Positions 4,655-23,002 of a stretch of DNA of 26,396 nt are shown piece after piece. The notes under the pieces were generated by a model, which worked only from the letters and a program-made list of their open reading frames with translations, did no database searches and was not told where the DNA came from. Position numbers and translations under genes: made by a program. Positions within the stretch are counted from its first letter, which is position 1; each line of letters opens with the position of its first letter. Source of the stretch: a virus; IMG/VR virus record IMGVR_UViG_3300021963_000566, positions 1 to 26,396 of that record; one strand, 5' to 3'.

Positions 4655-5736
4655 ATTGTCACCTGCTTCTGAGTAAAGACCTTTCCTGTGGCATACGTTT
4701 TAACTTTGCCATCAGCACCAGTCATTTGAATATCATAATAGCATGTCTTTGGTAGATCCTCTGTAGTTGTTGCAGGAAGAGAAATTACTAGGCCGTCTAA
4801 AACGCTGTTGTTGTTTACAGAGTACTTTGTAATAGTAAAGTCTGCAAGCAGAACTGGACCAACCTGTGCGAAGTCTCCTTGAGTATACAGACGAATCTGT
4901 CCCTTAGGAGTAAAGGTAGTAAGGTCAAATCCAAACTGATACCTCATAGTGAAGTCGTCCCCAGAGTACATCGAGATGTCTCGTGTAAGAACTGGAGTAG
5001 GGGGAGTAATGTCTCCGTAGTCCGGCATAGGTAAGGTAACTCTGTCTGGCAAAGACCAGTCGTCGATTTCTTGTGGACGATAGATTGGTACGTACTTGTT
5101 TGTACGACGGCTAATGCGACGTAGGCTTGCAACCTCAATACGATACATACCAACACCCAGCATAGTACAAAGCTCTTTGTATTGATTCTTACGAATCTCT
5201 ACCATCTCATTGACTTGACGGAAACGCTCTGAACGTGGGATAGAAACACCGTCAGGTGAGATAATATCAATATCAAAAGCTGAGTCTGTAGCTAGGGTAT
5301 AAAGGGCCATAGTTGAAGCCAAAAGAACTAAAGGATATTCGTCAATAGTTGGAAGCAGAGCTACTTGACTTACTCGTGAACCGTTAGGATCTGTAGTGTG
5401 AGCTGCGTGTTGAAAAAATGCTGTGTTGATATAGTATGAGATCTCTGAATCTGTAAAATATCTGTAAGACTGTCCGACTACGCTGATAATAGATGCGTTA
5501 GCGGGAACCTGGGTAGAAGCAAAGGTAATTACTCCTGTGCCTTCTTCTACGGTTACAAAGGAGGACTTGTCCACACCGTTTACTTTGATAACAAGTGTGT
5601 ATCCCTGAACAGGGTAAGTTGTAAGCTGAAAACGTACAGTTGTTCCATCACCAGTAAAGGAGTCAGTAAACGCTCTGGCTGTGTCGCCAATTTCTGCTCT
5701 TAGTCTTTCTGAGAGCTGTTGTACTGAGGCAGTCAT
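4651..5736 (-). CDS. Neck/head-tail connector protein with C-terminal beta domain (361 aa)
   Basis: Probable neck component. Residues 1-30 (QQLSERLRAEIGD) and residues about 93-210 (YFTDSEISYYINTAF ... MVEIRKNQYKELCTML) form a mainly helical region of the sort seen in head-tail connector proteins. Residues 25-90 look like an inserted beta domain (DGTTVRFQLTTYPVQGY). Residues about 255-361 form a second beta domain (SGDDFTMRYQFGFDLT ... YDIQMTGADGKVKTYATGK) resembling baseplate or fibre-attachment modules. The ATG is preceded by GGAGG with 5-nt spacing. A terminator-like hairpin precedes the gene, and tail-fibre genes follow, so it lies at the head-to-tail switch. The connector call rests on position and pattern only. 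Confidence 0.6.
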   Translation of the reverse strand: MTASVQQLSERLRAEIGDTARAFTDSFTGDGTTVRFQLTTYPVQGYTLVIKVNGVDKSSFVTVEEGTGVITFASTQVPANASIISVVGQSYRYFTDSEISYYINTAFFQHAAHTTDPNGSRVSQVALLPTIDEYPLVLLASTMALYTLATDSAFDIDIISPDGVSIPRSERFRQVNEMVEIRKNQYKELCTMLGVGMYRIEVASLRRISRRTNKYVPIYRPQEIDDWSLPDRVTLPMPDYGDITPPTPVLTRDISMYSGDDFTMRYQFGFDLTTFTPKGQIRLYTQGDFAQVGPVLLADFTITKYSVNNNSVLDGLVISLPATTTEDLPKTCYYDIQMTGADGKVKTYATGKVFTQKQVTI

Positions 5737-6306: not shown

Positions 6307-7401
6307 TTAGTTGGTTTCTGCGATAACTACAGACTGATCTGTGATCAGACCTAGACCGTAGATTGCGTACCAAGCAAGTGCGTGCTCACGACCGAAGTCT
6401 AGAATACCGCCATCGCGGAGTTCTACTGGAAGAGAGATTGCGTGACCGAATGCGTTATCTCCAATGAAGATAGCTGAGTAGCGGTCTGCGTTACCGTTAC
6501 CTGTCTTGCGAACAGGAGTTGTGTATCCACCACCAGTTGGGTAGACGATTGACTCTGGAGCAACTGCAGTATCAGTGGTGTAGTTAGTACCTGCACCGTT
6601 TGTTACCTTGTCGATCTGAGTTGTTTCGATGAATACTGTGTCGTATAGACGACCAATTTCACCTAGCATGAAGTTACCTGGAGCTGCGTACTTTGTTACT
6701 TCGATGAACTCTGAGTTGTCACGAAGCTTACGGCTCTGGTGTGGGTGAACGAACGCAACGTAAGTCTCACCAAGGCGAGGAATGTTACGTGTTGCAAGTG
6801 TCTCAACTGCGTCCTTAACAGTACGTGTTGAAAGGTTGAAGTTACCTGTCATTGAAGCACGTGATGTACCGTTTGTACCGTATGCGTAAAGGTTGTTACC
6901 AGCAGCGTTTGAAGATGTTGAGTATAGACCTGAGCGATCTTCACCGTAGATTACAGATGAAGCGGCCATTAGTGTGTCACGAGCCTGACCATCAAGGTAT
7001 AGGGCCATGTTACGTCCTAGAAGACGTGAAGCTGATGCCATAACGTCATCGAATGATGCGTTAAGTAGTAGCTCTGATACAGCAATTGCAAAGCCGTGCT
7101 CTGCTACTGTGATTGAGAACTGCTGTGCTGTTAGTGCGTTTGTTGACATACGGACACCTTCAACTAGTGAAGATGCTGATCCGAGGTTGTTATAACGCAT
7201 GAAGTTGATCTGGAGACCAGGTGCAACTCCTAGTTCTGTCTTCTTAACAGCGAACTGCTCGAAGCGTAGAATTGGCATTGACTGGAAAAGGATTTCCTTT
7301 GACCAGATTGTCTGAATTGCTTGTGTTAGCTGGCTGTTAGAGCCAGAGTATGCTGTAGGTGCTGCGGCTAGATTGCCGGTACCTGTTACGGCTGATGCCA
7401 T
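6307..7401 (-). CDS. Major capsid protein, N4-gp56 type (364 aa)
   Basis: Main shell protein of the head. Diagnostic stretches are QAIQTIWSKEILFQSMPILRF (split: SKEILFQSMPILRFEQFA, residues 34-51), then SSLVEGVRMSTNALT, TVAEHGFAIAVSELLLNASF, VAFVHPHQSRKLRD, and near the C-terminus GHAISLPVELRDGGILDFGREHA. This pattern and the length match the N4-gp56 family of HK97-fold capsid proteins. ATG is preceded by AAGGAG at about 10 nt. It follows the scaffold gene and is bounded downstream by a strong hairpin, as expected for a gene needing high expression. The region about 160-185 and 270-305 is probably surface-loop sequence. Confidence 0.92.
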   Translation of the reverse strand: MASAVTGTGNLAAAPTAYSGSNSQLTQAIQTIWSKEILFQSMPILRFEQFAVKKTELGVAPGLQINFMRYNNLGSASSLVEGVRMSTNALTAQQFSITVAEHGFAIAVSELLLNASFDDVMASASRLLGRNMALYLDGQARDTLMAASSVIYGEDRSGLYSTSSNAAGNNLYAYGTNGTSRASMTGNFNLSTRTVKDAVETLATRNIPRLGETYVAFVHPHQSRKLRDNSEFIEVTKYAAPGNFMLGEIGRLYDTVFIETTQIDKVTNGAGTNYTTDTAVAPESIVYPTGGGYTTPVRKTGNGNADRYSAIFIGDNAFGHAISLPVELRDGGILDFGREHALAWYAIYGLGLITDQSVVIAETN

Positions 7402-7457: not shown

Positions 7458-8231
7458 TTAACCAAAGATTCCTTTGTCCGTGCCACGTCCCATTCCGAGA
7501 CGATCACGAACCTTTGCGTATTCAGTAACCGACATAGCGGCAATTTGTTCCGCTGAGAACTGTTGTTGGTCCGAATTATTTTCCATGGTTGGAGGCAATG
7601 TTGGACGAGTACCTGTCATTTCACGACGTGCACTCTGCATAGCCTGTGATGCTGAATCTAGGATCTTAGAGGATCGGTCTCTAAGTCCAGTAATACTTTG
7701 TTCAATCTCTTCAGGAGTATTTCCTGAGATTAGATCTACAAGCTCAGGGATAATATTATCCTGTTCTTCCTGAACGCGACGTGTACGATACTCTGTAAGA
7801 GCTGCATACTGACGTTCACGCTCTACTAACGCGAGATTGCGTGCGTTTTCTTTACGTACTTCTTCAAGCTGCTCTTGCCACTCTTTTTCTTTGAGTGATA
7901 GAAGCTCACGTGTATCCATTTCAGACTCAGCCTTCTTACGGGCTTCTTCCTCTGCTTCTTTGCGGAGGCGATCTGACTCAGCTAAACGTTCTTCACGATC
8001 TTTAGCAAGAAGGTTTACTTCTCCCTTAAGAGATTCAATAGTGTCGTAGAGCTTTCCTTTTTCCTGCTCACGTACACGCTTTAAATCATCTTCTGTGTAG
8101 CTCTTCTGTTCTACGAACTGTGAAGAAGCCACTGCTTCATTTGTTGTAGGGGCCGGGGTTCCTTTAGCTTCCATGTGGAAAGCTTCTTGAGCCACTGCAT
8201 CAGTTACAACTGGAGATGCTTGTTCTGACAT
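7458..8231 (-). CDS. Capsid scaffolding protein (257 aa)
   Basis: Internal assembly scaffold by position and composition. Residues 45-160 are almost entirely charged helix (Glu, Lys, Arg rich), predicting a long coiled coil; residues 165-200 are a further helix; 205-225 is a Pro/Asn linker; and the last 30 residues (SAEQIAAMSVTEYAKVRDRLGM) form a small helix pair typical of the capsid-binding end of scaffolds. It lies directly between portal and major capsid genes. ATG follows AAAGGAACAATT. No protease motif is visible, so processing of the scaffold would need another enzyme. Confidence 0.85.
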   Translation of the reverse strand: MSEQASPVVTDAVAQEAFHMEAKGTPAPTTNEAVASSQFVEQKSYTEDDLKRVREQEKGKLYDTIESLKGEVNLLAKDREERLAESDRLRKEAEEEARKKAESEMDTRELLSLKEKEWQEQLEEVRKENARNLALVERERQYAALTEYRTRRVQEEQDNIIPELVDLISGNTPEEIEQSITGLRDRSSKILDSASQAMQSARREMTGTRPTLPPTMENNSDQQQFSAEQIAAMSVTEYAKVRDRLGMGRGTDKGIFG

Positions 8232-8341: not shown

Positions 8342-10063
8342 TTAAGAAGTTGAGCCTTTGAACGGATCTGCTCCACCGGACTCATCACTTGAACGCCACT
8401 GCGGAATCTTAGTTCCGTAGGCATCTGTAACAAGGTCAGTTTGCATCTGCGCCAAAGTTTGTTCTTCAAATGGAGTTACTACTCCTGGTTGTCCAAGAGG
8501 TCCTGGACCCGTTCCATCGCCTGGAGCAGCCCCTGGAGGAAGTGTACCATCTGGCATCATGCCTGTTAACGATGTAATTGCTGAGTTAATTTGCTGCTTA
8601 ATTAAAGCAACAGCTCCATCAGCCTTAGCATCTTGAATAAGCTCTGCACGAATTTCTTCTAGCTTCTCTGTTGGGAATTCCTCACCAAGCTGTCGCAAAG
8701 CACCTTCGCGGCTTTCTAGGTTAAGCTGCATCTTCATCTGAATCTCATTCAAAACAATCAGCTTATCTAGAGGCAAAGGTTGTGGGAAATGGACCATGGT
8801 CTTGTATGTTAGTGGGCTAGCTAAGTCTAACTGAGGCATTTGATTTGGCTTAATTGGCCCGTTAAACTGTGGGTTATAAATAAACATCTCTGGCTCTTTA
8901 AATGCAAGAGTTCTTAACACCAGCTCATTAATACGCTCTAGGCCCTCTCCATACTGAACAAGCTTCTGTTGGTAGCGATTCATCAGAGGTTGGTACTGAA
9001 TGGCTAGAGCAACACCAGATGTATTAGAGATAGGTTGTACTTGACCAAGTGCTGTTTCAGGAACACCGATCATCTCATGCATGGCTGTCTTAAGTACCTT
9101 TAGGTACTCCATAGCGCCCTGTAAGCCCTGTCCACCGCCTTCTAGGTTAAATACCTGGGCGTCCTTAGGAAGACCGCCCCAGACCTTCTTAGGGCCCTTC
9201 TCAAGGCTAGATGCTTTAGCTCCTGTAATAACAGTAACTGGCGCAGCGTGGTAGTTAATGATGTCAGCAATATCTGTTGCTGTTTCATTGTAGGCACGGT
9301 TTAACGTAATAACGTCGTGGCAATCAGCTAGTCCCCATGGGGATCCAGAGACGCGTACGTTAGGAATATGAATGACTGGAACAACGCCAATTGGATTTGG
9401 ACGAGAGTCAATAAGCTCGTCGTTAATGTATTCTTCAATGCGATCATCAGTCAAGATTTCGGTGTAAGTATATACCTGGCGTGTTCCCTCAACAGAAGTA
9501 CCCCAAAAGCGATACTTAAGTTTAAAACGAATTAGACGGGAACGATCATGTGGGTGGAATTCTGGGAAGCAGAATGAGGCGTTAAGTGGAAGGATTCTAA
9601 CTCGTCCAGGGTGAACCTGACCGATAGAGTCAGCGTATGCTTCTTCGTAAGCTACTTTAACAAATGAGTCACCAGATACTCCGCCTTGCTGACCAATTTC
9701 CCAAAGTACGCCTTTTTTATCGTTATCGATTTCCCAAACTCTCTTTAGAATATCTGGGATGATCGCCTCAGTTGCTACTGGGCTACGGAATTGAACTCCG
9801 CGACTAAATGTAAAGTTAATAACAAAATCTGTAAATGCGCGGTAATAGTTATACACCATCTGTGATTCGCCAATTTCACGGCGATAAGACCAGTGATGGC
9901 CTAGATACATTGCCCAGTTAAGTGAGTAACGGTTTAAGCGTGGACCGTGTACTTCAAACTCTTCATCAGCTAGTTCTACAAGACCTAGTGGAGAAATTGA
10001 GATAGTTAAATCACTCGACGCCGCTCTATACGACGGAGGACTGAAATCAATACCACCGGCCAT
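8342..10063 (-). CDS. Portal protein (573 aa)
   Basis: Twelve-subunit DNA entry channel at the head vertex. Length fits portal families. N-terminal region has LNRYSLNWAMYLGHHWSYRRE, then a central wing (VSGDSFVKVAYEEAYAD, GVVPVIHIPNVR), then the helical stem/clip region around VIGVPETALGQVQPISNTSG and QYQPLMNRYQQKLVQYGEGL, all typical of portals. The C-terminal 100 residues are Gly/Pro rich and probably flexible. It sits between TerL and the scaffold. ATG is preceded by AGGAAATAATTA. The 110 nt separating it from the scaffold has no convincing promoter. Confidence 0.9.
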   Translation of the reverse strand: MAGGIDFSPPSYRAASSDLTISISPLGLVELADEEFEVHGPRLNRYSLNWAMYLGHHWSYRREIGESQMVYNYYRAFTDFVINFTFSRGVQFRSPVATEAIIPDILKRVWEIDNDKKGVLWEIGQQGGVSGDSFVKVAYEEAYADSIGQVHPGRVRILPLNASFCFPEFHPHDRSRLIRFKLKYRFWGTSVEGTRQVYTYTEILTDDRIEEYINDELIDSRPNPIGVVPVIHIPNVRVSGSPWGLADCHDVITLNRAYNETATDIADIINYHAAPVTVITGAKASSLEKGPKKVWGGLPKDAQVFNLEGGGQGLQGAMEYLKVLKTAMHEMIGVPETALGQVQPISNTSGVALAIQYQPLMNRYQQKLVQYGEGLERINELVLRTLAFKEPEMFIYNPQFNGPIKPNQMPQLDLASPLTYKTMVHFPQPLPLDKLIVLNEIQMKMQLNLESREGALRQLGEEFPTEKLEEIRAELIQDAKADGAVALIKQQINSAITSLTGMMPDGTLPPGAAPGDGTGPGPLGQPGVVTPFEEQTLAQMQTDLVTDAYGTKIPQWRSSDESGGADPFKGSTS

Positions 10064-10913: not shown

Positions 10914-12494
10914 TTAAAAGAAAGGGCTGGCGCTTACTTCAATAGTAGGCATAACCATTTCTTGGGTCAAAGAACAAGCTAAAGCTAAAGAATCCACAAA
11001 ATCGTCGTGTGCGTGCGCCTCATCAGGAGCAGCCACTAGAAAGTTAGGGCCTTTGTACTGAACCTCGGCATCAGTCATCTGCTGATAGAACTTCTTCCAA
11101 ATTCGTAGGCGCCTTGTCTTAGCATGTGCGGGCCAGGAAACCATTTGACGTTGGATTAATGCTTGAAGGTGCTTCCATCGTCTAGATTGTTCAGATGGGC
11201 TAGAAGTAACAGATATAACTTCAGCTCTTGGCATAAGGATCTTTAGTCGCTGTGCAACAGCATCTCCGACACCGTTAGCGTCTACACCAATAGCTAGCAC
11301 GTCGTAGTTAGATAAAAATTGTTGGATCTGAAAATACTGCTCTTCCCAGTCATCGCCTTGAATCTCTAACCAGTTTAGAACTCTATGATCGTAATAGCCA
11401 AACTCATCCGGCCTATCCCAGTCAACCCACACAACAGTTACAACTGTTGAGTCCATCTTACGAGCCGGGTCAATTCCTACAACAACAGGCGATCTGAAAT
11501 GGCTCTTAACAAGTTCTTGTGAGGTATCACCAAGGTCATCCATAATTGAGGATGTAATGAACATACCGCGTTCTAGCAACCACTTACAGTTATATGAGAG
11601 CTGGAACTCGTCTGAGTCCTCTCCAATACGTAGCATTTCTTTTCTAATAAACTTCTCGTAGTTGGTTTGCACTTTTGCCACATCTCTCCAGTCCCACTGA
11701 AAATGATTTTGCTTAGCTCGTGCACTCATCTGTCGACGCTTATTTAATTGAATAGCTCGATAAAAGTTGTTCTTGTGTGTAGTAGGTGTGCCTGTTTTAA
11801 CAATAGTAGCGTTATAGTACGCACCCATAGGAGCAATAGACTTTGATACTACAAAGTCGTCTGCTTCTTGACACTCATCAATGATAATTAAATGGAAAGA
11901 CTTAGATTCAATCTTAGCTCGTGGGTTAGCTGTCATCATCATAAGAGTAGAGCCAGACTTCTTAAGCTTAATATTCTTAGTTACTCCGGGAGTTTTTGTT
12001 GGAATATCGTCTATCTCAGGATCTCCAAAGACCTCCATAGCACGCTCACTAGTAAGTCGTGATACTGTACGCCCGTATAGGGTTTCTACCTGGTTTTGTA
12101 CGGGGGCAAACATTCCCACCCAGATACCATCACCAAATTTACCTAGCAAATCTGGGTACATTATAGCTAGACGTGGAAGAATAACCATAAGAGTTGCCAC
12201 CGTGTTAGCAATAGTTTCAGACTTACCTGACTGACGAGAAGCAAGAGCTGTAACTTCTTCTCCATCATTAATAATTACTGACTCAATAACACGACGTGCA
12301 AGAGGCTTCTGATAGTTATGAAGCTCATGTCCAACCAACAGCTCCATAAACTGCATAATTTTATCTACAAGTACTTTTACAAATTCTTTTGATAGTTCGG
12401 ACAGCTCTTCTTCAGGCTCGTCTAAACCTATCTCTTCAGCATCAATATCGTCTTCGGCATCAAATTCTTCTAGATCTTCATCTAAATCGCTCAC
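10914..12494 (-). CDS. terL: Terminase large subunit, TerL (526 aa)
   Basis: ATP-driven packaging motor and nuclease. The N-terminal 35 residues are acidic. Walker A is ALASRQSGKS (83-92), Walker B is HLIIIDE (201-207) with the catalytic Glu207, and a coupling motif TGTPTTH is at 234-240. The RNase H-like nuclease domain shows its acidic residues in GIDPARKMD (Asp341), AIGVDANG (Asp405) and DDFVDSLALA (Asp497/498 and 501). Start is GTG at 12492-12494, overlapping the TGA of the 77-aa gene as GTGA. The complete set of motifs argues for an active enzyme. No small terminase is recognisable beside it; one of the small upstream genes could fill that role. Confidence 0.95.
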   Translation of the reverse strand: MSDLDEDLEEFDAEDDIDAEEIGLDEPEEELSELSKEFVKVLVDKIMQFMELLVGHELHNYQKPLARRVIESVIINDGEEVTALASRQSGKSETIANTVATLMVILPRLAIMYPDLLGKFGDGIWVGMFAPVQNQVETLYGRTVSRLTSERAMEVFGDPEIDDIPTKTPGVTKNIKLKKSGSTLMMMTANPRAKIESKSFHLIIIDECQEADDFVVSKSIAPMGAYYNATIVKTGTPTTHKNNFYRAIQLNKRRQMSARAKQNHFQWDWRDVAKVQTNYEKFIRKEMLRIGEDSDEFQLSYNCKWLLERGMFITSSIMDDLGDTSQELVKSHFRSPVVVGIDPARKMDSTVVTVVWVDWDRPDEFGYYDHRVLNWLEIQGDDWEEQYFQIQQFLSNYDVLAIGVDANGVGDAVAQRLKILMPRAEVISVTSSPSEQSRRWKHLQALIQRQMVSWPAHAKTRRLRIWKKFYQQMTDAEVQYKGPNFLVAAPDEAHAHDDFVDSLALACSLTQEMVMPTIEVSASPFF

Positions 12495-13815: not shown

Positions 13816-14364
13816 GTGATTATTAATGAAGAAACTATTGTAAAAATAAAGGTTACTTTGATGGCAGCAATGCTACTCATAGTTACAACAAACCAGGCCT
13901 ACGCGGTCTACAATCGGGTTGATACGCCCACTGTGATCACTGCCCCGGAGGTAGTTGATCCTCTAGATAAGTATCGGGAAATGACTAAGTTTAGTCCTAC
14001 GGACCTTGCAGACATGCTTGAACTAGTTGGCTTCAAGGGATATTCCCTAAAGCTAGCTTGGGCAGTAGTTATGCGAGAGTCTAGGGGCAACTCAGGTTCC
14101 CACAATAAAACGTCCTCAACCGGAGATAACTCTTATGGGCTATTCCAGATCAACATGCTGGGTAGCCTTGGGGAAGACCGAAGAGAAAAATTTGGTATTA
14201 AATCTAATGCTGAACTCTTTGACCCAGTAACCAACGCCCAAGCCGCTTTCTACATGACTAGTCGTGGAGAAAACTTTGGGTCCTGGGGATTAGGTCCAGA
14301 CGCATACGATGGAACAGCTTCTGAAACAGCGGTAACGGTGTGGCTAAAAGACTTTCCTAAGTAA
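13816..14364 (+). CDS. Secreted lysozyme-like/SLT transglycosylase protein (182 aa)
   Basis: Probable muralytic enzyme cutting peptidoglycan glycan strands. Residues 9-30 form a signal sequence or signal anchor (VTLMAAMLLIVTTNQAYA) with an AYA cleavage-like end. The catalytic domain follows: VVMRESRGN with Glu88 as the likely catalytic acid, then SYGLFQIN (106-113) and NAQAAFYM (140-147), the standard lysozyme/SLT motif series. Start is GTG with AGGAG about 5 nt upstream. It is the only plus-strand gene in the left 22 kb, with its own promoter, leader and terminator, like a moron cassette. It may be the endolysin exported by Sec, or a superinfection or release factor. No holin is seen next to it. 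Confidence 0.8.
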   Translation: MIINEETIVKIKVTLMAAMLLIVTTNQAYAVYNRVDTPTVITAPEVVDPLDKYREMTKFSPTDLADMLELVGFKGYSLKLAWAVVMRESRGNSGSHNKTSSTGDNSYGLFQINMLGSLGEDRREKFGIKSNAELFDPVTNAQAAFYMTSRGENFGSWGLGPDAYDGTASETAVTVWLKDFPK

Positions 14365-15933: not shown

Positions 15934-18756
15934 TTATTTCCCAGCGTTAAACTCGCGGGCTTTTGCTGCTGCTTCCATGATTTGCTGGCTTCCAGCCATA
16001 TCGCCTAGAATACGTATGGCAGCAGGACCGGCACCATCAGTATCAATTGGTGCAGACTTAGGAGATCTAGGTCCTGCCTTAGGAAGACCACCTGGAGCAG
16101 GAACTACTGCACGAGGATGTTCGCTACCTTTAGCGCGATTATCCTGTGAAACGCTGTCTGCTAGATCTGTGTTAGTACTGCCAATGTTTCCAATCCAACG
16201 TTGATCTAAGAATCCCCATTGTTGTCCGCTACGCTTAAACTTCTTACCGGTAGTAGCATCTACGCCAAAATTAGCAGCAGAAGCCTCAGCACGTGCGTTT
16301 TCTTCTTCACGCTCTGGTTGACCAAAATCAAGCATAGGTTGAACAACAGTACTAGGCTTCTTTTCTAAATTGATGCGGCTGTACTTGCTAGCTTCAGTAG
16401 ATGTCATTGTTGGCTTGCTTAGAGTAGGAGCTTCACCTGTAGGCATAGCTGATTGAATCCACTCTTGGCGCTCTGTCAAAGGAGCCTGTGTTGGACTAAA
16501 CGGAGTAGCATATGCTGTACGACCGGGAATTAAAGGCAATTCTTCCGTAATAATCGCATTAGTTCTTTTGTTTCTGCGTGCAGGTCTTGCTTGAGATCCT
16601 GTAGTTGGTTGTGGACCTTCTGCACCATCTGCTGGAGCATTAACTGGCTCAAAGAACTTTTGAAGAGGCTTTGGCATCATATTACCTGTAGCGGTACGAC
16701 TTCTAACAAATAAACGCTTAGCACCCTTAACACCCACTGTAGGTGGGTTAGGGATAGGGTTGCCTACATGATCTACACGATATGATGGCATTTCTGTAGG
16801 CTTAGTATTATCAACTGAACCAAATCCACGTCCACCAGCTGAACCGGTGTTTTCATCTTGATCACGAAGTTTTTCGCTAAGAGCTGTATTTTCTGCCGCT
16901 GTGCCAGCAACTACTTTCTTTCCAGGTTGAAATGCTGATGCGCCATCTGTAGCTGTAGATTGTAAAGTAGCCATTTCTGTAGGAATTGCTACATCCTCAT
17001 CAGCTCTACCCAAATATGCTGGGTCTACGCGTTGTCCAGGAGTACGAGGAGCCGCACCAAATCTAACATCTCTTGCAGCTTCTCCGACACCACTTACTGG
17101 TCCGCTACCAACTGTAGCGGCCAGCTGCTGAGAAACAAGATGGCTAACATCTTTAAGTACATTTTTACCGCGCCCACTACGCTTGTAGACTGTTGTGTCT
17201 TCTGCAGGTGTGTCGGTAGTCTTGAAAGTATCTTGTGGTTCTGTAGGTACTTTTTTAGGCTCATCAAGGGCACGTCCTGTAGTTGGATCAGTTACTTGAG
17301 TATTACTTATTCTACCTTCTGTAGAAACACCGCTTGCAGCTGCAATCTGTGCCATAGCTCGAGCAGCCTCTGCAATTTGTGCACGACTCTGCTTAGATCC
17401 CATAGGAATAGCTTCACGTGTCTGTTGAAGAGTATAGTCATAAGCAGGCATAGGAGCAGTTTGTGGGTTAGCGTCTAAAGGTAGAACGCTAGATCGATAG
17501 CTCCAATTACCTGGTCGTTGAGCTAAATTTTCACGTCCTGAATTTCCATCAGTTGGGGTTTTCCACCAACCAATATGTGTAGGAACAGTAGTTTGCAGGT
17601 TACCACGACTATCTTTATAAACAGATGTGTTGGTTCCCTTCGTTGCAGTAAGGTCTGGTAACCCCTCGCCTGTTATAGGCATGTTGTGAACAGTAGACCA
17701 CTCACTAATAGGATGAGTTGCTCCTGTTTCAGGATGTGTAAAAGTATCGTTTTCATGCAGATGTTGCATGCCGTAGTTGACAGGTGTAGCTGAATCTTTT
17801 TTATCTTGCAAAAGAGCGTGACGACTTTCTACAACATCATACTCAGTCATCTTCATTTTACGAGCATAGGTAGAAATATCATCTGGGTTTTCTCCTGCGG
17901 CCTGTAAACGACCTAGGCGTTCGTAGTGACCGCCTTTGTGAGCAAAAGGAGATGCGTAATCTTCAGAACCTTGTAGTCCTGCAAGACGATTAGCCCTACC
18001 TGAGTTCTTTTGCCAATCTAAATCATAGAGGCGATGTGCACGTGCAATATCTGCAGGTACTTCCATCTCTCCGTGTACAGGGTGGTTAATGATTTCTGAA
18101 GGTGTGCCTTCTTGCATACCTGGCAAACCTCTGCCTGAAGCAAGACGTCCTTCAGTATTTTCTTGAACTGCAGGTGATGCAGGTTGAGCACGGTTACCAC
18201 GAACCGCTCCTGTTGGAGCAGGAGTAAAGATTCCAGTACTTGTGCTTGGTGACCAACTGCCCTTAGGTTGATCCATGTCAGCAACTGGTACGTTAACTGG
18301 TTCAAATTTAGATTCTTGTTCTGGTTTTTGATCAACAAAGCTTGCGTTACCAGCACGAATTGCTATAAGCTCTTCTGGAGTAACACCTGTTGCGGCTGCA
18401 TCTACTGCTGCTTGTTCTGAAGGTGTCTTCTCACGACGAGCTTCTTCAATATCTTTTTCATCAAGTCTTGCGATAGAGTTCTTAATTCCTCGGGCAGTTC
18501 TTGCTTGCCCACTCTTACCAAGATCTTCAGCTGTATTTAATGTGTAAGGTTGAGTATCTTGCTCAACTTGACTTACATAATCAACACCTGGCTTAATAGC
18601 TTCAGCTGGAACAGTATTGTCTTTACGTGGAGCAATACCCTCTGTTGCTTTAACAATTTTTTCTATCTTAGTTGCTTTAGCAGATTTTTTTGAATCTCTG
18701 CGAGCAGCACGATTAGCAGGATTGTTCTTATTTACTTTCTTACCACGCTCAGCCAT
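15934..18756 (-). CDS. Very large, mostly disordered phage protein (940 aa)
   Basis: Not a recognised family. The N-terminus is strongly basic (KVNKNNPANRAARRDSKKS). Long Pro/Thr/Ser/Gly-rich stretches separate more ordered parts, chiefly about 225-440 (LYDLDWQKNSGRANRLAGLQ ... GMQHLHENDTFTHPETGATH, HIGWWKTPTDGNSG) and near 839-855 (FKRSGQQWGFLDQRW). No catalytic motif, membrane segment or signal peptide. The ATG overlaps the stop of the 242-aa gene (TAATG). With the 242-aa neighbour it looks like a virion-associated pair, for example a protein packaged in the head and carried into the cell, but that is inference. The large size for a disordered protein is unusual. Confidence 0.75.
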   Translation of the reverse strand: MAERGKKVNKNNPANRAARRDSKKSAKATKIEKIVKATEGIAPRKDNTVPAEAIKPGVDYVSQVEQDTQPYTLNTAEDLGKSGQARTARGIKNSIARLDEKDIEEARREKTPSEQAAVDAAATGVTPEELIAIRAGNASFVDQKPEQESKFEPVNVPVADMDQPKGSWSPSTSTGIFTPAPTGAVRGNRAQPASPAVQENTEGRLASGRGLPGMQEGTPSEIINHPVHGEMEVPADIARAHRLYDLDWQKNSGRANRLAGLQGSEDYASPFAHKGGHYERLGRLQAAGENPDDISTYARKMKMTEYDVVESRHALLQDKKDSATPVNYGMQHLHENDTFTHPETGATHPISEWSTVHNMPITGEGLPDLTATKGTNTSVYKDSRGNLQTTVPTHIGWWKTPTDGNSGRENLAQRPGNWSYRSSVLPLDANPQTAPMPAYDYTLQQTREAIPMGSKQSRAQIAEAARAMAQIAAASGVSTEGRISNTQVTDPTTGRALDEPKKVPTEPQDTFKTTDTPAEDTTVYKRSGRGKNVLKDVSHLVSQQLAATVGSGPVSGVGEAARDVRFGAAPRTPGQRVDPAYLGRADEDVAIPTEMATLQSTATDGASAFQPGKKVVAGTAAENTALSEKLRDQDENTGSAGGRGFGSVDNTKPTEMPSYRVDHVGNPIPNPPTVGVKGAKRLFVRSRTATGNMMPKPLQKFFEPVNAPADGAEGPQPTTGSQARPARRNKRTNAIITEELPLIPGRTAYATPFSPTQAPLTERQEWIQSAMPTGEAPTLSKPTMTSTEASKYSRINLEKKPSTVVQPMLDFGQPEREEENARAEASAANFGVDATTGKKFKRSGQQWGFLDQRWIGNIGSTNTDLADSVSQDNRAKGSEHPRAVVPAPGGLPKAGPRSPKSAPIDTDGAGPAAIRILGDMAGSQQIMEAAAKAREFNAGK

Positions 18757-19484
18757 TATAGTCCACCATCTGTTCCTGTTTTTTTAGCTCTAGGGGCCCT
18801 AGCTTTTTTAATTTTTGGTGCAGTAACTTCTGGTGAACCAGTGCTTGGTCCAGTTGGATTATCACCAAAAGGTAACTCTGGTTGTTGCCACCCTCCTTTA
18901 TCAGGTGTAGCATCTGTTCCTACCTGCGGTGCAATAGGTGCAACCTTAGTTTTGCGTCCTCGTTTTTTACCGCCATCAGCAGCAGGAGTTTCTGTCTTAG
19001 TACCTGCATTACCCCCGCTAACACCTAATAGTGGGTTGCCTCCAAGCAAAGGACCAATCTTTTGAAGGTTCTTAGATGTTAGTGGAGAAACTCCCTTAGA
19101 AGGGTCTAAAGAATTTTCGTAAAGCCCCCTAGTTAATCTTTCAGAATCTTTATAATCACGGTTACCGCCATGTGTGCGAGTAAGACGCTCTTGACGACCA
19201 GATTCTTTTGTTTGCTTAATCTTGTTTCCGCTTTTAGTGTTTTCAAGAGTAGTATCAAAATAGTTGCTTATAGCTTTAGATGAACCATCTGCTATTACGT
19301 TTGTCATAGCTCTGTGAGTATCGCGTTCTTTACCAAGCTCGTGCTGCTGCAGCATTAACTCGCCTTCTTTTCCAAAACGATAGTCGATTTCCTTTTTGCG
19401 CTGCCAACCTCGCAGCACCATGCCTAGTGGATTAAACCCACTGCCTGAACCTGCTTGAGTAACGTTCTGATTTAAATTTCTCAT
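18756..19484 (-). CDS. Hypothetical protein with basic disordered C-terminus (242 aa)
   Basis: Residues 1-130 are charged and helical (GMVLRGWQRKKEIDYRFGKE, ERDTHRAMTNVIADG, GRQERLTRTHGG). Residues 150-242 are Gly/Pro/Lys/Ala rich with two AT-hook-like basic patches (KKRGRKTK and KKARAPRAKK). The start overlaps the upstream stop as ATGA and its stop overlaps the 940-aa start. The basic tail could bind DNA. Family not recognised. Confidence 0.7.
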   Translation of the reverse strand: MRNLNQNVTQAGSGSGFNPLGMVLRGWQRKKEIDYRFGKEGELMLQQHELGKERDTHRAMTNVIADGSSKAISNYFDTTLENTKSGNKIKQTKESGRQERLTRTHGGNRDYKDSERLTRGLYENSLDPSKGVSPLTSKNLQKIGPLLGGNPLLGVSGGNAGTKTETPAADGGKKRGRKTKVAPIAPQVGTDATPDKGGWQQPELPFGDNPTGPSTGSPEVTAPKIKKARAPRAKKTGTDGGL

Positions 19485-19693
19485 ACGGAATCCGTTTCTT
19501 TATCGTATATGTCCAGAATTCTAGCAACTCCACCCTGGTTTGTAAGCGCTTGGGCGTTCTTATTATAGTGATGTTGGCAGAAAGATAGGTACCCATACGG
19601 CAGCTCTACCCCGCACATTGCCCTAGCCGAGCACTGGTCACACTGAACTCGTCCTTCTTCCACCTGCTTTGAAGCCTCTATTACCTGAGTCAT
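19481..19693 (-). CDS. DUF7455-like CxxC/CxHH small protein (70 aa)
   Basis: Contains CDQCSARAMCGVELPYGYLS followed by FCQHHYNKNAQAL. The order CxxC - beta - (L)xFCxHHxxK matches a small zinc protein family common in actinobacteria and their phages (which I know as DUF7455). This supports an actinobacterial host. It begins 22 nt downstream of the terminator that ends the preceding gene, with only a weak GAGAGAA ribosome site, so its transcription depends on read-through or an unseen promoter. It overlaps the 242-aa gene by 4 nt. Confidence 0.7.
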   Translation of the reverse strand: MTQVIEASKQVEEGRVQCDQCSARAMCGVELPYGYLSFCQHHYNKNAQALTNQGGVARILDIYDKETDSV

Positions 19694-19714
19694 AGGACTA
19701 TTCTCTCACTAAAG

Positions 19715-19743
19715 CAAAAAGCCGGGAGCGTGAACTCCCGGCT
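19715..19743 (-). terminator. Intrinsic terminator after the PASTA/beta-domain gene
   Basis: A 9-bp stem (19720-19728 with 19735-19743), 6-nt loop, followed on the minus strand by TTTTTGC. Also flanked by CTTTTATTT on plus, so possibly bidirectional. It separates the 351-aa gene from the 70-aa gene, indicating separate, higher expression of the former. Confidence 0.85.
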
Positions 19744-19761
19744 CTTTTATTTGCCTTAACC

Positions 19762-20817
19762 TTATGAAGCTGTTGCAAACGGTGTAATTGTGATTGTAGC
19801 TGTTGAAAGGACTGAACCTGTTCCAGCTGCAACTGACTGAGTCTTGATTGTTCCAGCAACGCCTGTGAGACCAGCAACAGAAAGTGATCCTGTTGATAGA
19901 GCTCCTGAAGTTGTTGTTGTGTAAGAAACAGAGTTTGTAGCAACTGCTGTAACTGTGAATGTACCGTTGAGATCTGTATTTGGTGATACAAGGCTTGCAA
20001 CTGTAATCTTTGTTCCAACTGGGTACTTTGCACCAGCACCTGTTGAGGTGATTGTTGCTGTTGTACCTGTACGTGATACTGCTGTGATTGTTGAAGCTGC
20101 GTTTGTAGCTGCTGTTGCAGTTGTAATGTTAGCTGCTTCGTAACCAGCATCCTTAAGCTCATCAAGAGCTAGAGCTGTTGTTTCACCGATTACTGAAGGT
20201 ACTACGATGTAAGGGATTCCTGCGCCATCAGCTGCTGAACGAGCTGTTGTCTTTTCTACCTTACCGTACCACTGTCCTGTAATTTCACCAGCGTTAGCTG
20301 CGTTAGTTACTGTGAAGCCAAGCTTGTTAGCTGTAGCAACTGTTGCTGCTGATAGGTTGTAAGCTGAAGCTGTAAGACCTGTAATGTTTACAACGTCTCC
20401 TGCTGCAAGTTGGTTTTGTGATGTGTATGAAACTGTTGTGCCGTTACCTGAAACTGCGGTAATCATATAGTTACCTGCTGCTTCGATGTATCCTGGGAAA
20501 CCTGCCCACTCTGCTTCTACATCTGAGTGGTTTCCAAGTGCTGCGTTTAGGCGTGCACTAGGTACTGTAGTTGTGGTTGTCCACTGTGCATTACCTGTAG
20601 CTCCATAAGCTACAGTTGCTGTTGGTGTTCCATCAGCACGTTCATCATTTGGTAGAGCTGGGCGTGATCCCCATACGAAATCTACGCGTAAATTTCCTGC
20701 TGAGTCGGTAGCGTTACCGTTGTTGTTAACTCCAGCTGGTTGTGCCGCAATAGCAACGGCGGCTGCGCCAGTAGCTTGTGGGTCACCCACTGGGAGTGGT
20801 GCGTTATAACTTGACAT
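19762..20817 (-). CDS. Virion surface/decoration-type protein with PASTA halves and beta domains (351 aa)
   Basis: Probable capsid decoration or tail surface protein. Residues 118-172 (ITAVSGNGTTVSYTSQNQL ... ATANKLGFTVTN) and 243-302 (ITAVSRTGTTATITSTGAG ... GTFTVTAVATNSVSYTT) are two copies of one beta domain. Residues 203-240 (VPSVIGETTALALDELKDAGY) look like the first half of a PASTA domain, and 319-347 (VAGTIKTQSVAAGTGSVLST, TITITP) like its second half, so the second beta copy appears inserted into PASTA. PASTA domains bind peptidoglycan or stem peptides in Gram-positive kinases and PBPs. ATG follows AAGGAATACAA. Strong terminator follows, as for an abundant protein. Confidence 0.7.
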   Translation of the reverse strand: MSSYNAPLPVGDPQATGAAAVAIAAQPAGVNNNGNATDSAGNLRVDFVWGSRPALPNDERADGTPTATVAYGATGNAQWTTTTTVPSARLNAALGNHSDVEAEWAGFPGYIEAAGNYMITAVSGNGTTVSYTSQNQLAAGDVVNITGLTASAYNLSAATVATANKLGFTVTNAANAGEITGQWYGKVEKTTARSAADGAGIPYIVVPSVIGETTALALDELKDAGYEAANITTATAATNAASTITAVSRTGTTATITSTGAGAKYPVGTKITVASLVSPNTDLNGTFTVTAVATNSVSYTTTTSGALSTGSLSVAGLTGVAGTIKTQSVAAGTGSVLSTATITITPFATAS

Positions 20818-20879: not shown

Positions 20880-21446
20880 TTAAGCCTCTTGTACCTGTGT
20901 AATGATCTTACCACCTGAATATATATCGTGTTTGATAGCAGCCTCTATAGCTTTTCGCAGAATTTTTTCTGCGGCCTCGGGAGTAGTTGCTTTTTCATAG
21001 TTAAGAGCCTCTAAAGCGCCCAAAGCAATATCTCCACCGCTACCTGCGTAATAAACGCGGCGGGCTTCTCTATCCCAAGAGTAGTCATTAAAGATCGGGT
21101 AGATAACACCACGAACCGAAACTAGAAGGTTAGAGTCGTGAAATGCTGCGTCTCCATCTTCCTTACCTTCAAAGCCGGCATCTTGAAATGCTTTACGCAT
21201 TGAAGGAATAAAAGTTTTAGTCATAAACGTATCTAAGTTATCTGTAGCACGTGGCTTTGGTGGTTTCCAACCAAACTGTGTAATATTTCCACCACGAGAT
21301 GCACCAGAGACAGCTATCAGTACACCGTTGTTATTAATAATTTTTGGTGTTGCTAAATCCATGTAGCGACCATCTTCATCAGATGCACGACTATCGCACC
21401 CGATTACGGTCCAGCCATCACCCTGTATAGCAGCAAGCGTAGTCAT
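20880..21446 (-). CDS. Proteasome beta/HslV-like N-terminal threonine hydrolase (188 aa)
   Basis: Ntn-hydrolase fold of the proteasome/HslV type. Starting at the ATG (21444-21446), the protein reads MTTLAAIQG; Met removal would expose Thr2 as nucleophile, as in HslV. Counting from that Thr, Asp is at 17 (CDSRAS, with Arg at 19), a Lys at 34 (TPKI; canonical 33), a Gly-rich SGASRGG at 47-52, and SGGDIALGAL at 135-144 corresponding to the SGG near 129. The C-terminus (EAAEKILRKAIEAAIKHD) matches the helix pair of the fold. ATG is preferred over the GTG at 21452 because GAGG is correctly spaced only for the ATG. No ATPase partner is present in the window. Confidence 0.8.
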   Translation of the reverse strand: MTTLAAIQGDGWTVIGCDSRASDEDGRYMDLATPKIINNNGVLIAVSGASRGGNITQFGWKPPKPRATDNLDTFMTKTFIPSMRKAFQDAGFEGKEDGDAAFHDSNLLVSVRGVIYPIFNDYSWDREARRVYYAGSGGDIALGALEALNYEKATTPEAAEKILRKAIEAAIKHDIYSGGKIITQVQEA

Positions 21447-21482
21447 GATCACCCTCTCTTGGTATAGCTATAGGATAGCAGA

Positions 21483-21947
21483 CTAATCTATGGTGCCTTG
21501 CCCAAAGCTCTGCTCGTTACTTTGCGGAGGGGTTCCTGTAACAGTATCCCACATACCACCTGTATACCTAGCTAGCACGTTGTCAATATAGTCAGTTGTA
21601 GAGCCGTAGTTTCCTAGTTGATCCCATTCGCCCTGAGATACCCCAGGGTAACCTACAACTGTATCATCACGCATTAGGATTACTAAATACTCTTGCTCTT
21701 TGTTGTAACCTAGCTTTTGAGCTCTAGAACGCCCACTGTTCCTTGATGGGGCTGGATCGACTACTTCATAGCCAACACCAAATTGAGGATCCACAATAGA
21801 GGTGTTCCCAACAAGTTGGTTCATTCCGTCGTTACGTCCACCAAAGTAACCTGGAGGAGGATCTATTCCATACTTAGACTTATAGGCAGCAGTCATTGCT
21901 GCTTTGTACTCAGGTGTATCTGAGAAAAATCTATGTGCTCTTGCCAT
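21483..21947 (-). CDS. Hypothetical protein with short beta domain (154 aa)
   Basis: Unrecognised. N-terminal helix (MARAHRFFSDTPEYKAAMTAAY), Gly/Pro/Asn linker, then a compact beta/helix stretch EYLVILMRDDTVVGYPGVSQ followed by EWDQLGNYGSTTDYIDNVL, somewhat like KTSC-type small domains. C-terminus polar. GGAG lies about 12 nt upstream of the ATG, overlapping the stop of the FmdB-like gene. It precedes the proteasome-like gene by 36 nt. Confidence 0.65.
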   Translation of the reverse strand: MARAHRFFSDTPEYKAAMTAAYKSKYGIDPPPGYFGGRNDGMNQLVGNTSIVDPQFGVGYEVVDPAPSRNSGRSRAQKLGYNKEQEYLVILMRDDTVVGYPGVSQGEWDQLGNYGSTTDYIDNVLARYTGGMWDTVTGTPPQSNEQSFGQGTID

Positions 21948-22264: not shown

Positions 22265-22284
22265 CTTTTGGTGTGTGTACAGCG

Positions 22285-22356
22285 CTGATCTTCCTGGATT
22301 CGAACCAGGGACAACTCGATTAACAGTCGAGGGCTCTGCCGCTGAGCTAAAGATCA
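22285..22356 (-). tRNA. tRNA-Asn (GTT)
   Basis: Minus-strand cloverleaf: acceptor TGATCTT/AAGATCA, D arm GCTC/GAGC, anticodon stem CTCGA/TCGAG around CTGTTAA with anticodon GTT, and T arm CCTGG-TTCGAAT-CCAGG. 72 nt including discriminator G; CCA is not encoded. It sits just downstream of a structured RNA candidate and upstream of small zinc genes, and would be cotranscribed with them. Confidence 0.95.
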
Positions 22357-22467: not shown

Positions 22468-22494
22468 ATTCTACCACAAGTTACTTGATTTCAA
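22468..22494 (-). promoter_or_regulatory. Promoter for the structured RNA and tRNA-Asn
   Basis: Extended -10 TGGTAGAAT (TAGAAT at 22473-22468) and TTGAAA (22494-22489) with 15-nt spacing, inside the 3' end of hsp20. The 14-nt string TAGAATATTAATTA is identical to that before hsp20. Expected transcription start near 22461. Confidence 0.6.
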
Positions 22495-23002
22495 TAACCT
22501 TTGGCTTCTTCTCCTCGGGTAGCTCTTGCTCCAAAGTGATTCGTAGCAATCCATCCTTAAGCTCTGCACCCTTGACGACGATATACTCAGCTAGAGCGAA
22601 CTCTTGCTTGAAGTCACGGGTAGCGATTCCCTTATGGAGTGCTTCCTCCTGAGGTGCCCCTAATTCGCCTTCTACGGTCAACTGGAGCTCTTTGACACTG
22701 ATCTTGATATCTTCCTTAGCAAAACCAGCTACAGCCAGTTCTAGTACGTATGTATCCTTGTTTTTGTAAATGTTGTATGGAGGATACCCGCCAGTTTTTA
22801 CCTCAGCGCTGATGTGCTTGAAGGTGTCAAACATTGGATCGAAACCAATTGCCCAGCGATTAAACTGAGGAAAGAGCGAATTGATTGTAACTACCTCTGG
22901 TTTTGTGATTTTAGGATATGTACCATGAGGTTTTGGTTCCCATTGACCTGTGTAACGGTCTGCGAATGGGTCTTTATTGTTTCCAATAGGCATATTTGCC
23001 AT
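22481..23002 (-). CDS. Small heat-shock protein, Hsp20/IbpA-like (173 aa)
   Basis: ATP-independent holdase that binds unfolding proteins. The alpha-crystallin domain (about 73-165) starts with YPPYNIYKNKDTYVLELAVA and GFAKEDIKISVKELQLTVEG, followed by the IbpA-type GIATRDFKQEFALAEYI and GAELKDGLLRITLEQELP. A C-terminal VIEIK provides the IxI motif used for oligomer contacts. The N-terminal 70 residues include FDPMFDTF. Length and motifs fit a complete class A protein. ATG follows AAGGAGATAAAAA. It leads the minus-strand block that contains the proteasome-like enzyme. Similar genes occur in T4-like aquatic phages, where they are thought to help virion assembly. Confidence 0.93.
   Translation of the reverse strand: MANMPIGNNKDPFADRYTGQWEPKPHGTYPKITKPEVVTINSLFPQFNRWAIGFDPMFDTFKHISAEVKTGGYPPYNIYKNKDTYVLELAVAGFAKEDIKISVKELQLTVEGELGAPQEEALHKGIATRDFKQEFALAEYIVVKGAELKDGLLRITLEQELPEEKKPKVIEIK

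Follow-up and report, generated by a model that had tools for sequence, protein, structure and literature searches.

A single-copy proteasome-fold Ntn hydrolase in a group of freshwater actinophages

RESULTS

Gene content of the window

The window, meaning the whole stretch of DNA analyzed, is a 26.4-kb IMG/VR virus fragment (26,396 nucleotides [nt]; IMGVR_UViG_3300021963_000566) whose minus strand carries the head module of a tailed phage, with terminase, portal, scaffold-like, and capsid genes. The protease open reading frame (ORF) has exactly the boundaries given in Table 1 and specifies a product of 188 amino acids (aa).

Table 1. Features of the window and the evidence for each
Feature	Position	Strand	Basis
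Major capsid protein	6307..7401	-	phrog_1357 1.3e-65, PF25209
Probable scaffolding protein, charged, helical	7458..8231	-	Composition and place between portal and major capsid; no family match
Portal protein	8342..10063	-	phrog_64, PF05133 5.5e-22
Large terminase	10914..12494	-	phrog_2, PF17289
Lysozyme/SLT-type gene	13816..14364	+	PF18896 2e-15
Variable 940-aa gene	15934..18756	-	
Intrinsic terminator, bidirectional hairpin, closing the protease/351-aa unit	19720..19743	-	Perfect GC-rich hairpin plus TTTTT; plus-strand match too
Beta-rich/PASTA-like 351-aa protein, probably virion-associated	19762..20817	-	Weak PASTA match; directly downstream of protease
Proteasome-like Ntn peptidase, group I, HslV/BPH branch (assignment qualified in text), 188 aa	20880..21446	-	PF00227, phrog_1040, AlphaFold2, Foldseek
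Ribosome-binding site GAGAGGG and spacer before ATG	21447..21460	-	Sequence; similar purine-rich site in most relatives
Weak KTSC-like domain gene, 154 aa, directly upstream of protease	21483..21947	-	PF13619 E 0.002, below cut-off
tRNA-Asn (GTT)	22284..22356	-	
Hsp20 small heat-shock protein	22481..23002	-	PF00011 6.1e-16, phrog_432

The genes on either side of the protease recur in many of its relatives. Of 79 loci, 46 have the 351-aa gene immediately downstream, at a gap of 46 to 72 nt, and 48 of 75 have the KTSC-like gene immediately upstream. The conserved adjoining gene is that of the virion-type beta-rich protein, which is other than the scaffold. An "Hsp20 block" had been predicted to adjoin the protease, and an Hsp20 gene is indeed present about 1 kb upstream; however, it is a single gene, and of 64 testable loci, only 25 have Hsp20 within 3 kb upstream of the protease. 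Among 13 Hsp20-bearing genomes, the two genes are next door to each other in 8 and tens of kilobases apart in 5, a linkage so loose that we rejected a partnership between them.

Several further features were observed in the window and its relatives. The tRNA gene sits between the Hsp20 and zinc-ribbon genes and shares its strand with the protease unit. The lysozyme/SLT-type gene, whose family is present in 57 of 81 loci, stands inside an otherwise minus-strand region. The 940-aa gene is highly variable, with a match in 1 of 19 relatives, and is flanked by conserved genes. One related contig (L074) has six tandem ORFs of a single family downstream of the protease (after position 8573). On the Rhizobium etli plasmid pRetNXC12d, a proteasome-like homologue and an Hsp20 family gene are separated by about 1.6 kb (L181:2875-3351 and 5001-5549), repeating the Hsp20 neighborhood in another setting.

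The N terminus lacks a propeptide

The original prediction placed the start at the ATG favored by the ribosome-binding site, and this assignment holds. GAGAGGG lies a few bases 5' of the ATG at 21446, and a longer protein from the GTG at 21452 was rejected: this codon is too near the GAGAGGG site, and the nearest relatives do not conserve it. The protein begins Met-Thr-Thr, as had been claimed, with Thr2 (Thr1 once Met is removed) as the predicted nucleophile. Thr immediately follows the start codon in all 95 relatives, whether that codon is ATG (84 cases), GTG (8), or TTG (3). In 79 of the 95, the interval between the preceding stop codon and the start used contains no in-frame start, so a propeptide is impossible in most relatives. 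Methionine aminopeptidase accepts Met followed by Thr, and normal processing would therefore be expected to leave an N-terminal Thr.

Fold and family

The product matches the Pfam Proteasome family (PF00227; E = 6.5e-8, over the cut-off) and PHROG 1040, "peptidase HslV family" (E = 5.6e-26); a sub-cut-off match of the ORF to LRR_15 in Pfam was taken as spurious. An AlphaFold2 model based on an alignment of 44 relatives has a pLDDT of 91.5 and a pTM of 0.87, and its best Foldseek match in the PDB is BPH (5ovs; TM 0.77, E = 7.4e-12), after which come 20S beta subunits and then HslV at a TM of about 0.66. Against viral models, TM values of 0.91 to 0.93 were obtained for an unnamed protein and for a phage protein called "HslV ATP-dependent protease." The ORF product is thus confirmed as a proteasome-fold Ntn hydrolase. 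Both helices of the first pair are modeled (residues 50-58 and 71-89), the chain terminates in a strand (181-187), and a fifth helix is absent. The loop at the pore position (89-104) is acidic, with a mean net charge of -4.0 in 44 relatives.

The description "proteasome/HslV-like" was correct as to a proteasome-type Ntn hydrolase, but the protein is no true HslV by model cut-offs, by clade, or by the presence of HslU. Its scores against the HslV equivalog models are 16.6 bits for TIGR03692 (cut-off, 157.75) and 16.8 for NF003964 (cut-off, 137), versus 288/304 bits for E. coli HslV as a control. In a maximum-likelihood tree, three true HslV sequences form their own clade (100/99), apart from nearly all phage sequences; the window protein belongs to a freshwater clade of five sequences (99/99), or of six (94/88), and the deeper forks of this tree are mostly unsupported. 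A profile of 15 phage relatives matched the PDB sequences of HslV (2.9e-13) slightly better than that of BPH (2.2e-11).

HslV, BPH, AAH, CPH, PPH, RPC, and DPH constitute "group I" of the proteasome homologues, and PPH and AAH have been found in phages (PMC8665760). Assignment to PPH was rejected, that protein having about 140 aa and no helix H2, as opposed to the 188 aa and both first-pair helices present here. Assignment as a 20S beta subunit was rejected as well: the protein has no propeptide, there is no alpha-subunit copy, and scores fall far under the beta-subunit model cut-offs. We place the protein in the HslV/BPH branch, with BPH as its nearest structural match.

Active-site residues are under purifying selection

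Conservation was counted over 44 nonredundant relatives, numbered from Met = 1 (mature numbering is one less). The residues shared by proteasome-like Ntn hydrolases, Thr/Ser1, Asp17, Lys33, and Gly47, are all present, as T2, D18, K35, and G48. These four positions are invariant in all 44 relatives, as are G135 and G137. The original prediction, which either a fold other than that of an Ntn hydrolase or a lack of conservation of Thr2, Asp18, and Lys35 would have refuted, thus withstood both checks. S136 is Ser in 43 relatives and Thr in one; at D174 (equivalent to D166), 42 relatives have Asp and two divergent ones have Asn; and the position of S177 is occupied by Ser, Thr, or Cys. Even when phages of Vibrio, Geobacillus, Moorella, and Xanthomonas and E. 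coli HslV are included, M1, T2, D18, G135, and G137 are invariant. The proposed active-site map of Asp17, Arg19, a Lys at 34, and a Gly-rich loop largely stands, since D17, R19, K34, and G134-S-G-G137 (mature numbering) all occur in the window protein and, being mostly invariant, are no chance resemblance, but the Arg is incompletely conserved (R20 from Met = 1), with Arg in 39 and Gln in 5 of the 44 relatives. Within the main clade, 653 pairs gave a median dN/dS of 0.10, indicative of purifying selection. With the catalytic positions kept at such a ratio, an inactive relic was rejected.

Distribution and hosts

A first IMG/VR scan yielded 80 relatives. A set of 17 related contigs (93 to 131 kb) was picked for carrying the protease, so it is informative about its copy number and not about its presence. 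The protease is single copy in all 19 near-100-kb relatives examined, which include phages DSL-LC01 and F5. When loci were instead selected by terminase, the protease was on the same contig in 14 of 15 with at least 9.6 kb upstream, the exception being a 45-kb contig without it (L266). The gene therefore represents a single-copy actinophage branch that is near-universal in a group of freshwater phages of about 100 kb.

The actinobacterial host that had been predicted is supported because every one of the 19 related genomes has at least one gene for WhiB, an accepted mark of actinophages (PMC6802176, PMC10202952). Homologues also occur in the Actinomycetia phage DSL-LC01 (38%), a metagenome-assembled genome (PMC10611076); in Arthrobacter phages Hum25 and Pitbull; in Microbacterium phages Pumpernickel and LeeroyJenkins; and in OX376640 and OX376641, the Planktophila phages LanE43AprE7 and F5, which were the first phages of "Ca. 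Nanopelagicales" to be cultured (PMC10202952). In both E7 and F5, the homologue is just behind the portal gene. The order in F5 is terminase, a small gene, portal (18201-19985), protease (20001-20537), and, further on, scaffold-like and capsid genes.

Neighbors in other phages include ThyX, thymidylate synthase/DHFR, exonuclease VIII, and WhiB, and a further homologue is in a thymidylate-synthase/RNase/ribonucleotide-reductase cluster. Because neighbors vary among phages, no single neighborhood defines the role of the protein. Two scans of bacterial genome contigs found no bacterial relative, and a plasmid search with an Arthrobacter phage query and alignment-seeded scans gained nothing.

Turnover of protease alleles

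In three relatives defined by their terminases, the protease is only 43 to 47% identical and occupies the same slot, as against 84 to 91% identity for terminase, portal, and capsid (alleles L212:1139, L229:1682, and L211:672). The 351-aa neighbor is likewise divergent in these phages (45 to 49%). All three divergent alleles keep the Thr, Asp17, Lys, and GSG loop. Block exchange explains the divergent alleles, the slot being kept while the allele changes. The protease behaves as if it were following a target that evolves more quickly than the capsid, a point against the explanation favored below.

Absence of a dedicated partner

The original prediction noted no ATPase partner in the window, itself a 26-kb fragment, and the wider search agrees: in the 17 related contigs and DSL-LC01, no HslU/ClpX-type AAA_2 protein scored over the cut-off. 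ClpP-type and S78 prohead proteases are absent from all 17 relatives; DSL-LC01 likewise has no ClpP but has an S78-type match. These absences are provisional because the completeness of the contigs is not given. Most relatives encode an AAA+ protein of about 470 to 480 aa (e.g., L091:841-2280 and L089:871-2280), which we rejected as an unfoldase: it is of the AAA_5 (MoxR/CobS) type, and its gene is roughly 7 to 12 kb from the protease, mostly in divergent orientation. A phage peptide deformylase that would expose Thr1 was also rejected, none being found in 19 genomes. In Vibrio phage V6Aob, a peptide deformylase gene lies two genes upstream of the homologue (L186:1283-1771), where the two enzymes could act sequentially on N termini.

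DISCUSSION

Taken as a whole, the best explanation of the locus is that it probably encodes an active, one-gene threonine peptidase of proteasome type that is ATP-independent and self-compartmentalized. Its fold, catalytic residues, lack of a propeptide, single copy, purifying selection, and actinophage setting were established computationally. In such an enzyme, host peptide deformylase and methionine aminopeptidase would remove Met1 and free Thr1; Lys34 and Asp17, together with the Ser of the GSG loop, would then activate Thr1. Identical subunits would stack, as those of BPH and HslV do, into a double ring that encloses the active sites, and unfolded or loosely folded chains could be taken in without ATP. 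Two observations suggest such ATP-independent uptake: the loop at the pore position is acidic, and no HslU-, ClpX-, or Mpa-type unfoldase was found in the relatives searched. Activity is not assured, given that BPH, the nearest solved relative, was inactive on the substrates tried in vitro (PMC5777263).

The job that we consider likeliest, and that we put forward tentatively, is to dispose of or trim polypeptides that are unfolded or in surplus during virion production, because the protease gene adjoins a virion-type gene and, in cultured relatives, follows the portal gene. Against a role in virion assembly, homologues in other phages are found among nucleotide-metabolism or early genes. A rival reading is capsid maturation, in which a proteasome-type enzyme replaces the S78- or ClpP-type prohead protease and digests the scaffold. 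Consistent with this, a gap of 15 nt separates the portal gene of F5 from the protease gene that follows it, neither type of prohead protease is present in the 17 relatives, and the window and F5 each encode a scaffold-like protein separately from a phrog_1357 capsid protein. However, a distance of about 10 kb with many genes separates the protease of the window from the portal, scaffold, and capsid genes, and LeeroyJenkins has the homologue plus a gene annotated "capsid maturation protease," just as DSL-LC01 has it plus the S78-type match. Many scaffolded phages need no protease, and a barrel with internal sites would not easily act inside a procapsid. With homologues elsewhere among metabolic genes, capsid maturation is not favored, and we regard it as unlikely. 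The removal of host proteins in host takeover or counter-defense, which is possible if on balance improbable, would fit the turnover of protease alleles in a constant slot beside a constant virion core, and the early or metabolic neighborhoods in several other phages; but dN/dS is low within the main clade, the neighbors in the window are virion-type genes, and no specific host target or defense gene is linked.

Actinobacterial hosts in general possess Mpa/ARC, and the protein might carry out proteolysis for an AAA+ partner, either one from the host (Mpa/ARC, Cpa, or ClpX) or the phage AAA_5 ATPase encoded at some distance in relatives. Mpa, however, docks on the alpha rings of the proteasome, and a second PF00227/phrog_1040 copy is absent from all 19 genomes; MoxR/CobS-type proteins are outside the unfoldase families known to feed proteases; and the acidic pore loop resembles that of BPH, which has no unfoldase. 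We consider this arrangement distinctly unlikely. Least probable is that the fold was kept and the protease function was not, leaving an inactive protein or a ligase. Connectase is a precedent for the same fold turned to ligation (PMC8665760), and BPH activity went unseen with standard substrates in vitro; but every catalytic position is kept under purifying selection, the first helix pair, which connectase is missing, is present, and no two-helix insertion separates the early strands.

In the most far-reaching reading, freshwater actinophages would deploy a dedicated, ATP-independent, one-gene "mini-proteasome" at virion production, replacing the prohead protease or clearing assembly waste, with an actinophage-specific subfamily diversified in its slot; so full a scenario we consider doubtful. 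Phage-borne proteasome homologues were already known: a 2021 survey by Fuchs, Alva, and Lupas described the phage-borne PPH and AAH, for which an AAA+ partner was unidentifiable, and a marine phage paper labels one phage homologue BPH, by annotation alone (PMC8665760, PMC8953757). The additions made here are the actinophage branch, its near-universality within a single group, and its connection with two phages in culture. An actinophage group thus has the gene almost universally, although the survey that defined the families found no Actinobacteria-specific phage with AAH (PMC8665760). In the open-license literature, we found no paper with a functional test of any proteasome homologue encoded by a phage. 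E7 and F5, "Ca. Planktophila" phages in culture with the homologue behind the portal gene, make the function of a viral proteasome homologue testable in culture.

Comparison with known systems

With HslV (ClpQ) of HslVU, the phage protein shares the fold, the Met-Thr-Thr start, and the active-site map; it differs in the absence of HslU and in its acidic pore residues, which in HslV are basic, as opposed to the acidic pore loop of BPH (PMC5777263). BPH (PDB 5OVS/5OVT/5OVU) is closer in structure and likewise has no propeptide, an acidic pore loop, and no unfoldase partner, but identity is about 20% and BPH is a chromosomal bacterial protein. The actinobacterial 20S proteasome (PrcB/PrcA with Mpa) has the same fold and Thr1-Asp17-Lys33 chemistry. 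The phage proteins of PHROG 1040 and the PPH and AAH types also combine a phage-borne proteasome fold with the lack of a propeptide and of a known AAA+ partner. By its published description, AAH is similar in being a compact group I subunit with no propeptide and no C-terminal S12/H5. The window protein differs in coming from an actinophage, a setting in which the survey found no AAH, and in belonging to a distinct, supported clade.
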